Source of the DNA: a virus
DNA: 35,163 bases
IMG/VR virus record: IMGVR_UViG_3300023184_000319
Location: 1 to 35,163 of that record
Strand: one strand, 5' to 3'
The notes under the pieces were generated by a model. That model was not told the DNA's origin. It saw only the letters and a program-made list of their open reading frames with translations, and did no database searches. Position numbers and translations under genes: made by a program. Below are positions 10,235-20,808 of the stretch, in pieces. How positions within the stretch are numbered: position 1 is the stretch's first letter; each line of letters starts with the position of its first letter.

Positions 10235-12864
10235 TGGCTGATCCATTTGATATTGCGTTGCAACAAGAAGGGTTAAGTGGCCCGTTGGCTGAACTTGCTC
10301 GTTCAATTTATATGCAAGAATCAAGTGGCGGCAAAAACACGGCAACATCAAACGCAGGTGCGGTTGGTGGGATGCAAATTATCCCTGCTACGTTTGCCCG
10401 TATGGCAGATCAAGGTTGGGATATAAACAATCCTGAACAAAACGCTAGAGCAGGTTTGCGGTATATCAAACGATTAAATGAATTGTCAGGCGGCGATCCA
10501 ATATTGACCGCTGCTGGATATTACGGCGGTGAAGGTGCAATTGATAAGGCTCGGCAAGGCATTGCAATATCAGACCCTAGAAACCCAAATGCGCCTAATA
10601 CCTTGCAATACGGCAGGCAAGTAGCCGATAGATTAGCGAGTGCCACTATGTCAGATGCAAATCCAATAGCAACAACGTCGAATCCATTTGCTGCGTTAAA
10701 TGAAGAATTTAGACTTGGCGCACCAAAAGCTAAAGAAGAAAACCCCTTTGATGCGTTAAATTCAGAATTTGCTTTGCCTAAAGCAGAACCTTATGTTGCA
10801 CCGCCAGCGCCAAAACAGCCAACAACTAGCGAAAGCATTATGGGTGCGCTTAAAGATTTACCACGCCAAGTCGGGTTAACGGCTCGGTATGGAATGGAAG
10901 GTTTGGGCGATGTTGGTTCAATGTTGCTTTCGCCGTTTCAAGTGCCAATTAGTGCGGCATCACAAGCGTTAGGTGGGCCACCCGCGGCAACATTGCGAGA
11001 AATGGCAACAGCAGGCGCTAATGCGATGGGTTTGCCACAACCACAAGGTCGCTTGGAAAACGTAGTTGGTGACGTTACAAGAGGCATGGCAGGCGCTGCA
11101 ACTGGTACACGATTAGCAGATTTATTGTCGCAACAAATTGCAAAAACAGCACCTACAAGATTGGTAGGTTTATCCTCTGAACAATTAGCAACCGCAGCGC
11201 CGACGATCAACCCAACTGTTACGCAAAAAGTAACAGAACAATTGGCTCAAGCGCCAATTATGCAAACCATTGCAGGTGGCACGGCATCTGGGGCAGGCGG
11301 TGCGGCTAAAGCGTTTGGCGGTGGCCCTGCTGCTGAAATAGGTGCAACGGTTGCGGGTGCGTTAGCGCCAGGCGGTGCAACTGCGGCAGCGTCAAAAGGC
11401 TACAAATTAGGTCAAGCAGCAATCCAACCTTTGTACGAAAGCGGCAGAAATCAAATTCTTGCCAATGCTTTACGAAACGTCATCCCTGAAGATAGGGTTG
11501 GTGACATTATTGAAAAATTAACCGCAGCAAAATCATTAGTGCCAGGCTCTATGCCCACGGCGGCAGAAGTTGCAGAAAGTGGCGGTATTGGCGCACTACA
11601 ACGGTCAGCTGCCGCTGCATACCCAGAACCTTACACGCAGCGTGGATTAGAGCAAAATGCGGCTAGAGTGCAAGCGTTGCGTGGCATTGCGGGCGATGAA
11701 CAATCGTTAGCAGCGGCAGAATTAGCCCGTAAAACAGGAACGCAACCTTTATATAGGCAAGCCGAACAATCAACGGCTGAAGTTGATTCAACAAGAGTGG
11801 TTAATTTAATTGATCGTTTAACTGCAAAAAACACAGGTAGACCACAATTAGTTAAAGAATTAAATCAAATTCGTGAAACTTTATTTGAGTCATATCCCGT
11901 GCAACAACGTGGGGCTGACGCTTGGAAAGAATTAGACACAGCATTAACAAGAAGAATGTCGGATGCGGATTCTGACGCTGTAAGAACAGCAAGAACCGTT
12001 ATGAACCGAATTCGCAAAGGCGATATTGATGCTGAAGAAGGTTTGTCGCAATTAAAAGAAATAAAAGTGACTAGTAAAACGGCAACAGATGCCGTTGATT
12101 ATGCTCGGGCGCAATTAAAAACACCTGATTATGTGTTGCGTCAAAAGCCAGAAAATATTATTTCGTCGATTAGCGGAATTAAAGATATTCTTGCAACAAC
12201 AGAAAACAAGTTTTTAACTAGAGAATTGTTAACTGTAAAACGTGCGCTAGAAAATCAATTAAGCAAAGTTGAGCCTGCTTTTAAACAAGCGGAACAAAAT
12301 TTTGCACAATTGTCGCAACCTATCAATCAAATGCAAATTGGGCAAGAATTGCTCAACAGGATGCAACCTGCATTGGCTGATTACGGTGCTTTGGGTTCAG
12401 AAACCGCTGCCAAATATGCACAAGCATTGCGTAACGCAGAACAAACCGCCAAAACAGCAACTGGTTTTAAAGGTGCAACATTAGAACGCACATTAACACC
12501 AGAGCAAATGGGAACGATTACATCTGTTGCTCAAGATTTAGCAAGAAAGACAAATGCACAAAACTTAGGGCGAGGCCCTGGCTCTGATACTTTTCAAAAG
12601 TTATCAATGGCTAATATGGCGCAGCAAGTCGGTATGCCTATTGGTTTGGTTGAATCTGTCGGCAAAATACCTGCAATTGGCGGTTATTTGACTCGTATTT
12701 ACGGCGAGGCAGATACGCAGATGCAACAAGCCTTGGCAAAGGCATTGTTAGACCCACAAGCAACGGCTAAACTGATAGCACAAGCAAACCCAGCGGATAG
12801 AAGTCGATTGATGGCTGACGCTTTGCGTGGAACATTAACGCCATCGTCTTTTATGAACCAATAA
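10234..12864 (+). CDS. Ejection protein with N-terminal lytic transglycosylase (SLT) domain
   Basis: This 876-aa protein has an SLT domain in residues 1-135. The catalytic Glu is in MQESSGG (Glu29-Ser30), followed by VGGMQI (44-49, the usual G-L-M-Q motif) and AAGYYGGEGAI (93-103, equivalent to A-Y-N-x-G). Such domains cleave peptidoglycan so the ejectosome can cross the periplasm. After it come two copies of NPFxALNxEF (150-159 and 170-179), a Pro-rich linker, and a Gly/Ala-rich moderately hydrophobic region (about 335-390) that could insert in the membrane. About 450 residues of mostly helical C-terminal sequence follow. The repeated NPF motif may bind a partner virion protein. Strong assignment for the N-terminal domain; ejection role from position and size. 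Confidence 0.8.
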   Translation: MADPFDIALQQEGLSGPLAELARSIYMQESSGGKNTATSNAGAVGGMQIIPATFARMADQGWDINNPEQNARAGLRYIKRLNELSGGDPILTAAGYYGGEGAIDKARQGIAISDPRNPNAPNTLQYGRQVADRLASATMSDANPIATTSNPFAALNEEFRLGAPKAKEENPFDALNSEFALPKAEPYVAPPAPKQPTTSESIMGALKDLPRQVGLTARYGMEGLGDVGSMLLSPFQVPISAASQALGGPPAATLREMATAGANAMGLPQPQGRLENVVGDVTRGMAGAATGTRLADLLSQQIAKTAPTRLVGLSSEQLATAAPTINPTVTQKVTEQLAQAPIMQTIAGGTASGAGGAAKAFGGGPAAEIGATVAGALAPGGATAAASKGYKLGQAAIQPLYESGRNQILANALRNVIPEDRVGDIIEKLTAAKSLVPGSMPTAAEVAESGGIGALQRSAAAAYPEPYTQRGLEQNAARVQALRGIAGDEQSLAAAELARKTGTQPLYRQAEQSTAEVDSTRVVNLIDRLTAKNTGRPQLVKELNQIRETLFESYPVQQRGADAWKELDTALTRRMSDADSDAVRTARTVMNRIRKGDIDAEEGLSQLKEIKVTSKTATDAVDYARAQLKTPDYVLRQKPENIISSISGIKDILATTENKFLTRELLTVKRALENQLSKVEPAFKQAEQNFAQLSQPINQMQIGQELLNRMQPALADYGALGSETAAKYAQALRNAEQTAKTATGFKGATLERTLTPEQMGTITSVAQDLARKTNAQNLGRGPGSDTFQKLSMANMAQQVGMPIGLVESVGKIPAIGGYLTRIYGEADTQMQQALAKALLDPQATAKLIAQANPADRSRLMADALRGTLTPSSFMNQ

Positions 12865-19733: not shown

Positions 19734-19750
19734 CCCATACAGAAAGATTC

Positions 19751-19765: not shown

Positions 19766-20005
19766 ATGAATACAACAGAAATTATTGAAACACTAGGTGG
19801 CACGTTTGCTGTAGCCAAACTATGTCGTGTCAGTCCGCCAGCCGTAAGTCAATGGCGCAACAACGGTATGCCTGGTGACAAACTGGTGCTTTTAGCTGCT
19901 GAACTTGAAAAGAAATCAGACGGCAAATGGAATCGTAAAGAAATCCCAAACTGGCAACAAATCTGGCCTGAGTTGCATAAAGTAAAAAAAGCGAATAGAA
20001 TTTAA
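19766..20005 (+). CDS. YdaS/Cro-like HTH transcriptional regulator
   Basis: This 79-aa protein has an N-terminal HTH (residues 11-42): TFAVAKLCRVSPPAVSQWRN followed by NGMPGDKL. That is the YdaS-type antitoxin/Cro-like fold where the helix V-S-P-P-A-V-S-Q-W-R recognises DNA. It ends with a C-terminal W-N-R-K-E-I...W-P-E-L tail typical of that family. It is divergent from the erf operon, with operator-like repeats between them. It is the only repressor-size regulator seen, so it probably controls both flanking promoters. It is followed by the structured RNA/terminator. Whether it supports lysogeny is unclear because no integrase or CI is present. Confidence 0.75.
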   Translation: MNTTEIIETLGGTFAVAKLCRVSPPAVSQWRNNGMPGDKLVLLAAELEKKSDGKWNRKEIPNWQQIWPELHKVKKANRI

Positions 20006-20055
20006 CTATCTATTGGATTGGTAACCCAGTAGTAGTTAAGCACAGCGAATAGAAC

Positions 20056-20151
20056 GCCCTAATAAGGCGGCTTCGTCAAAGCTACAGGAAGGTGGTGCTT
20101 CACCTCTTGTATGTGGCAACCAAGCCTAAAGCCTCCTTATTAGGGCTTTTT
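20056..20151 (+). terminator. Structured RNA ending in intrinsic terminator
   Basis: An 18-base left arm starting GCCCTAATAAGG (20056-20073) pairs, with one mismatch, to a right arm AAGCCTCCTTATTAGGGC (20129-20146) followed by TTTTT. The 55-nt interior holds a second stem, GCTACA with TGTGGC (20081-20086 and 20113-20118), and a third hairpin, AGGTG-GTGCTT-CACCT (20090-20105). A plain terminator does not need a long multi-stem interior. The element could be a small stable RNA, transcribed with or processed from the regulator mRNA, or made from its own start. It terminates the regulator transcript. Confidence 0.65.
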
Positions 20152-20449
20152 GTTGTCTGTCACTTACTTGTCAGGGCGCATTAGCTAACAGAGTGACCGC
20201 TTGTACCCATTTAGGTCAAACATTGTTTTACAGTTGTATCCCGTGTGACCCGCACGCCCCAGTAGAGAAATCGAACAGGATATAGACAGAGTAGAGAAAT
20301 CTACTAAAACCATTTACTCTAGGTATTGATCTTCTACACCTGCAAAGACTGCTAGTGTTTTAGGGAATCTAGGGGTGGGGTGAGTTGCCTGCCACAAAGC
20401 TAACAAGCTACAGGTCTGTCGTAAAGGATTTATCCTCAACTACTACGGT

Positions 20450-20470
20450 GGGTGGGTATAAGGGTAGGGG
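20450..20470 (+). other. G-quadruplex motif
   Basis: Four G-tracts of 3, 3, 3 and 4 bases are separated by T, TATAA and TA (loops of 1, 5 and 2 nt), a canonical G3 pattern with short loops. A second, three-tract G-rich run lies at 20363-20380. It falls in the non-coding region. Confidence 0.5.
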
Positions 20471-20534
20471 AACTATTGTCAAATACATTTAACATCTGAC
20501 GGAAATGTCATATATATTGTACAAATACCGACTT

Positions 20535-20556
20535 TATGTATCATAAGTGATACATA
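20535..20556. promoter_or_regulatory. Perfect 9-bp operator-like dyad
   Basis: TATGTATCA-TAAG-TGATACATA, no mismatch. It lies about 55 nt upstream of the extended -10 at 20610 and is overlapped by an ATAGATA. It is typical of a dimeric activator or repressor site. Confidence 0.45.
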
Positions 20557-20609
20557 GATAACAGTAGGTTAAAAACAACAGTTTAATTGCTGCTTTTTTT
20601 TAAACATTC

Positions 20610-20618
20610 TGTTAAGAT
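20610..20618 (+). promoter_or_regulatory. Extended -10 promoter of the rightward small-gene operon
   Basis: TG-T-TAAGAT, identical in 13 bases (20606-20618) to that of the regulator gene. Predicted start about 20625, leaving a 16-nt leader with AGGAG (20631-20635) before ATG 20641. Confidence 0.5.
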
Positions 20619-20640
20619 AACTAAACAATAGGAGATCAAC

Positions 20641-20808
20641 ATGACAGAGTGGATTGTTTATTCATTGATTGCAGGAATGGTAACTTTTGTGTGGCTGTGG
20701 AAAACTCGATTACAAAAAAACGTGCGACTCGACGTTGACAAACCGTGTCATTGTTTGCATCCCATTAAATGCGACTTGTTTGATAAATGTATGCGAGGTG
20801 AGAAATGA
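20641..20808 (+). CDS. 55-aa membrane protein with Cys cluster
   Basis: A strong AGGAG site precedes ATG 20641, and the TGA overlaps the next start (ATGA at 20805). An N-terminal TM helix (WIVYSLIAGMVTFVWLW) is followed by a basic stretch and a Cys/His-rich C-terminus (CHCLHPIKCDLFDKC), which could bind a metal. It is first in the rightward early operon. I do not recognise a family. A small anchored zinc- or metal-binding protein is what can be said. Confidence 0.6.
   Translation: MTEWIVYSLIAGMVTFVWLWKTRLQKNVRLDVDKPCHCLHPIKCDLFDKCMRGEK

Follow-up and report, generated by a model that had tools for sequence, protein, structure and literature searches.

A long stem followed by a run of U residues directly past a regulator gene may simply end transcription, or it may belong to a structured RNA in its own right; this is the question raised by the present locus. 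We examined it in a viral DNA of 35,163 nucleotides (IMG/VR record IMGVR_UViG_3300023184_000319), referred to in its full length as the window. Here a cro-like gene on the plus strand (19766-20005; PHROG 35 transcriptional repressor, 1.9e-11, with a P22_Cro match slightly below the Pfam cut-off) is separated by 635 bases from the next gene at 20641, and no open reading frame (ORF) of at least 50 amino acids overlaps 20006-20640 on either strand. An earlier sequence-only reading had placed a multi-stem RNA ending in a terminator at 20056-20151, right behind the cro-like gene.

Anatomy of the element

That reading described an outer stem of 18 positions with a U-tract, enclosing two further stems, and this layout holds up. 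The 5' strand of the outer stem (P0) lies at 20056-20073 and the 3' strand at 20129-20146 (plus strand, as all features below); 17 of the 18 positions are paired, the exception being a C20068/U20134 mismatch, and five U residues at 20147-20151 complete an intrinsic terminator. Enclosed are the P3 (20083-20111) and P4 (20115-20126) hairpins. The minimum free energy amounts to -45.8 kcal/mol against -25.4 +/- 3.1 kcal/mol for shuffled sequences (z -6.55; 0 of 200 as good). The element, which we call RNA1, thus shows the G+C-containing stem and subsequent U-tract of a terminator. A description as a single short-loop hairpin was rejected in view of the 55-nt enclosed part, its two covarying or invariant hairpins and the P1 and P2 hairpins upstream.

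The initial limits proved too short, because a promoter (19973-20001) and two hairpins, P1 (20010-20032) and P2 (20035-20046), are conserved upstream; the hairpin first noted forms the 3' two-thirds of RNA1. With our covariance model R1 the whole element spans 20006-20153 (131.8 bits), and the predicted transcript runs from about 20008 to 20151 (roughly 140 nt). The sigma70-like promoter (-35 TTGCAT at 19973-19978, a 17-nt spacer, -10 TAGAAT at 19996-20001) overlaps the 3' end of the cro-like gene. P1 (helix 1) has its stem at 20010-20016/20026-20032, with double-sided changes in 5 of 5 pairs, and a loop AUUGGUAAC (20017-20025) in which UGGU is invariant. P2 (helix 2; 20035-20037/20044-20046) carries the loop AAGCAC (20038-20043), which finds its partner in the P3 loop. 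After the 5' strand of P0 (helices 3-5, as folded) follows the junction CGUCAAAGC (20074-20082), whose CGUCA is invariant in a 70-sequence alignment, partly as a consequence of the search pattern. P3 (helices 6-7) pairs 20083-20088 with 20106-20111 and 20090-20094 with 20101-20105, and its loop GUGCUU (20095-20100) kisses AAGCAC at 20038-20043. P4, GGC-AACCAA-GCC (20115-20126), is invariant across relatives.

The minus strand of the hairpin region folds as well. Nonetheless, the plus strand is taken as the functional one, because G-U cells outnumber A-C cells among the paired positions of the relatives (187 against 19) and both promoter and U-tract lie on this strand.

Relatives and covariation

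Pattern scans of IMG/VR with the two outer-stem arms yielded eight contigs, with the inner core 95 and with a looser pattern at least 119; RNA1 is thus present in over 100 uncultured viral contigs. Removal of near-copies left 72 nonredundant RNAs. Of 23 whole viral contigs, every one has a single strong match to R1, and one of them an additional 19-bit match; by this comparison of contigs, RNA1 occurs once per phage. It lies after a primase gene, beside a terminase gene or after a cro-like gene, and the proteins encoded around it are diverse (primase, terminase, ParB-like, HNH, cro-like). Since flanking genes vary between phages, the proposed regulation of early phage genes gains no specific support.

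No match to RNA1 was obtained in INPHARED phages or PLSDB plasmids, also when searching with the RNA1 of a relative, and Rhodoferax phage P26218 and Venkman, the nearest terminase relatives, lack the element. Neither R1 nor RF02932 (Betaproteobacteria-1) matches anywhere in 369 Gammaproteobacteria genomes; as the R1 search had no positive control and the host may be another organism, this is weak evidence that host genomes lack RNA1. A DNA search of phages with the window region gave chance matches only, and three pattern matches in GTDB species representatives as well as those in L019, L041, L147 and L179 were likewise set aside as chance. In 23 loci an ORF extends through RNA1 (cluster 10); as the loops differ by single bases, we regard this ORF as a side effect of the conserved RNA.

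Compensatory changes among relatives, whose absence had been set beforehand as a refuting outcome, are abundant. When 73 distinct sequences are aligned by fitting to the model, standard pairs fill 97.0% of the cells and 27 of the 37 pairs show double-sided changes; this alignment is biased towards the structure, and an independent MAFFT alignment likewise gives 27 of 37. The covariation score reaches 0.650, against 0.209 (sd 0.008) for shuffled data and at most 0.147 with slid partners. P0 is well represented, its helices 3-5 being paired in 99.5, 96.5 and 100% of the cells with double-sided changes in 11 of 17 pairs. RNAalifold, run on the MAFFT alignment, recovers the helices that are seen by eye when relatives are placed side by side and returns a single set of helices as consensus fold, in which no alternative antiterminator helix is seen.

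Inside each RNA the six-base P2 and P3 loops complement each other, yet they vary between RNAs (60 distinct P2/P3 loop sequences in 72 RNAs). The summed pairing length of a P2 loop with the P3 loop of its own RNA is 432, while the maximum in 10,000 permutations is 320 (none reached 432). Of the 72 RNAs, 51 combine full loop pairing with both stems, as do 84 of 2129 chimeras, and the covariation of the contact is 0.733 (0.206 when shuffled, at most 0.215 when slid). The pairing is broken in few members (for instance L079); as far as sequence data go, it may take place within one molecule or between molecules.

A further contact is suggested by the P4 loop, of which ACCAA is complementary to UUGGU of the P1 loop. 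Within class A, as we call the RNAs of the window's kind (UGGU/ACCA), both loops are invariant and the contact therefore shows no covariation. Two free-loop scans for compensatory P4-loop variants gave no real variant, so that the contact, which we consider probable, rests on analogy with two unrelated RNAs described below (class B and MW202545). The seed patterns fixed CTTCGTCA and parts of P4, and the invariance of these positions is biased accordingly.

Promoter and terminator are as regular as the fold. A promoter score of at least 9 out of 12 (against TTGACA/TATAAT) is found directly before P1 in 44 of 72 relatives and at 14 of 680 control places, with the end of the -10 element 7-9 nt before P1; the promoter in the window is weaker (8 out of 12). 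All 72 nonredundant relatives end in a U-tract of U4-U9, and after it no promoter-like signal rises above background (mean 5.6 against 5.7). Comparison of sequences thus establishes the P0-P3 helices and the P2-P3 contact along with the promoter position, the U-tract and the plus-strand sense. The suggestion that the element exceeds a simple terminator is borne out: it is a conserved structured RNA with a terminator at its end and a promoter at a fixed distance.

The RNA island and the exchange of cassettes

In most types about 17-60 nt separate the U-tract from what comes next, which is usually another conserved noncoding stretch. In the window this RNA2 (20170-20470, ending in CTACGGTGGGTGGGTATAAGGGTAGGGG) is of a type common to 35 other viral contigs and has no Rfam match. 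It is structured, with 21 compensatory pairs and -102.6 kcal/mol in the RNAalifold consensus against at most 14 pairs and at best -66.8 kcal/mol in 30 column-shuffled alignments. Elsewhere the downstream stretch belongs to one of several unrelated RNA2 types, or a small ORF is present instead. In four loci (L015, L025, L027, L089) Betaproteobacteria-1 (RF02932) starts 17 nt past the U-tract of RNA1, which is the position of RNA2 in the window; RF02932 itself has no match in the window.

Another RNA2 type starts with CTATCGGG (L012, L013, L014, L023, L024, L040, L047, L065, L073 and L090-L092); several of its members have a hairpin resembling a tRNA T arm (GGTTCAAGTCC), where ARAGORN reports no tRNA. 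A type starting with ACCCGTACTCCGCACGATAG lies downstream of RNA1 in L017, L046, L050, L078, L101, L121 and others. RNA2 modules seem to be shuffled, because in L029 and L158 the front part of this type is joined to the back part of the window's RNA2. In L162, L173, L174 and L177 an ORF (74 amino acids in L162, no Pfam match) separates the terminator at the RNA1 position from RNA2. Acidovorax phage AP1 (L145; OM049504.1) has an unannotated Betaproteobacteria-1 RNA (about 11857-11980, 93.4 bits) directly past its primase gene and with no RNA1 before it.

The 72 loci (663 kb) contain seven tRNAs, each on the strand of RNA1 and 113-372 nt ahead of it (L020, L040, L051, L065, L074, L118, L129); most loci have no tRNA. 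A 13-mer, ATTCTGTTAAGAT, is present in the window at 19747, before the cro-like gene, and at 20606, before the gene at 20641; it probably represents a promoter element common to both genes, on either side of the RNA island.

In about 20 relatives with the RNA2 of the window, and often with a near-identical cro-like gene, RNA1 is replaced by another RNA that we call class B (carriers fall within L148-L178). In three of these (L160, L155, L153) identity to the window is 90-100% immediately ahead of 20006, falls to mostly 5-65% between 20006 and about 20166, and is high again from there on, apart from a short divergent patch near 20206; the promoter stretch of L160 is identical to that of the window. 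The replaced segment in these near-identical phages runs from the start site to the U-tract, and such a comparison establishes that RNA1 is exchanged as a cassette reaching from start to terminator. Class B follows the same plan (promoter, P1, long terminator stem) with unrelated sequence and similar topology. Over 7-9 bases its P1 loop pairs with the stretch immediately preceding the 3' side of the terminator stem; 18 unique sequences, among which 9 different loops occur, all retain this pairing (pairing sum 147, at most 124 in 5000 permutations).

A third RNA1-like unit, so far a single example, was observed in MW202545.1 (L146; 2830-3010). It has a promoter, a terminator stem and a 10-base P1-loop pairing in which GTGGAAAACC of P1 matches GGTTTTCCAC; a tRNA cluster precedes it and Betaproteobacteria-1 directly follows.

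A small RNA, a leader or part of a longer RNA

From these comparisons we consider it rather likely that RNA1 represents a new family and is a discrete, probably stable small RNA, with a terminator that controls transcription into the RNA downstream. Transcription would start at P1 and mostly stop at the U-tract; the 5' hairpins and the 3' P0 clamp, tied together by the loop-loop contacts, would then give a compact RNase-resistant RNA of ~140 nt. RNA1 would act as RNA; most likely it would bind a protein, of the host or the phage, or another RNA, and the invariant junction (GGCUUCGUCA...GGC(A)AACCAAGCCUAAAGC) together with the UGGU loop may form the binding surface. The terminator would limit transcription from the RNA1 promoter into RNA2 and, as the gap contains no separate RNA2 promoter, would set this flow. 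RNA1 may thereby combine two roles in a phage RNA island, those of abundant product and of gate.

The short distance from RNA1 to RNA2 in most types is just as compatible with a leader or attenuator. RNA1 could be mainly a cis-acting conditional terminator (an attenuator or riboswitch-like leader), with tertiary contacts deciding between a stop at P0 and read-through into RNA2, or in some phages into a small ORF. This is a possibility of some substance, though one that we doubt. It agrees with the RNA2 or ORF lying some 20-60 nt behind on the same strand in most types, across a promoterless gap, and with class B, which occupies the same place with equal logic and has its P1 loop paired just before the 3' strand of P0. 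However, cassettes without common sequence precede one and the same RNA2, which makes a shared ligand-sensing core unlikely, the consensus fold offers no antiterminator helix as an alternative, RNA2 types and flanking genes vary widely, and the next gene in the window is preceded by a separate copy of the cro-type promoter element. The constant order, the small gap, the structured RNA2 and the tRNA-island setting might also be read as one long ornate RNA of 450-600 nt (the GOLLD/ROOL kind) with an internal U-tract and an exchangeable 5' domain. We find this improbable: class A, class B and MW202545 independently show a strong stem followed by a U-tract, as expected for termination, the RNA2-like Betaproteobacteria-1 of Acidovorax phage AP1 does without RNA1, and in some relatives an ORF separates the RNA1 position from RNA2.

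An antisense function had been proposed at the outset, and a terminator-ended small RNA with exposed loops that adjoins a regulator gene does recall lambda OOP, P1 c4 and P4 CI RNA, which would pair with an early phage transcript. Yet the longest complement to RNA1 elsewhere in the window is 11 nt, no more than for shuffled RNA (9-13), the variable loops complement one another inside RNA1, and no neighbouring gene is conserved as a target, so we hold this function to be very unlikely. A stem and a U-tract past a gene are also what an ordinary intrinsic terminator with chance structure would show. The covariation of the helices and of the P2-P3 contact refutes this almost entirely, extending as it does over the whole element including the parts upstream of the terminator; moreover, RNA1 has its own promoter and is swapped as a unit.

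The preferred reading, a discrete small RNA, has partial counterparts among known systems. At gathering score, Rfam 15 contains no family for RNA1 (searched with the window and 42 related loci); the only matches there are tRNA and, downstream, RF02932, and a relaxed threshold adds chance miRNA and sRNA matches only. Betaproteobacteria-1 is, like RNA1, a structured RNA with unexplained function, but it is the downstream element and differs in sequence and fold. The lambda 6S RNA / pR'-tR' late leader resembles RNA1 in that a promoter and a short terminated RNA precede sequence reached only by read-through; the 6S RNA is not known to have a conserved tertiary fold, and PHROGs tests of 30 window proteins name no Q-like antiterminator. 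The put RNAs of HK022 are likewise structured at the transcript start, whereas they prevent termination and hold no terminator and RNA1 ends in one. The stable species 1 and 2 RNAs of phage T4, located beside tRNA genes and of unknown function, are by description alike in size and tRNA setting. In phi29 pRNA, as in RNA1, two complementary loops of one RNA vary between phages; those of pRNA pair intermolecularly and function in packaging by gp16-type motors, while the window phage has an ordinary large terminase. GOLLD and ROOL are structured RNAs of phages and prophages that lie near tRNA islands and have kissing loops (PMC12286853). RNA1 shares the phage location near tRNAs (7 of 7 within 372 nt upstream), though GOLLD and ROOL are much longer than its about 140 nt, and neither family has an Rfam match to RNA1, RNA2 or class B. 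The open-licence literature yielded no paper on put RNA or naming Betaproteobacteria-1 RNA. RNA1 is a structured RNA family new to Rfam that may have been described earlier, as our search covered open-licence papers only.

It is unusual for whole RNA cassettes to be swapped from the start site through to the terminator. Tentatively, the locus might be regarded as an RNA cassette system of phages that are otherwise near-identical, in which unrelated RNAs of one topology (a 5' hairpin with its loop paired inside a terminator stem) replace each other at a fixed site, between a promoter and a second set of exchangeable structured RNAs; this would suggest diversifying selection with the RNA as determinant, exerted for instance by host defence or phage-phage exclusion. 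RNA1 adds a well-supported structured RNA family in uncultured phages, for which the collections searched offer no cultured member, and Betaproteobacteria-1 can now be seen more broadly, as one among several RNAs that alternate downstream of RNA1. Acidovorax phage AP1, which is cultured and carries this downstream partner of RNA1, provides an entry for experiments on RNA2.
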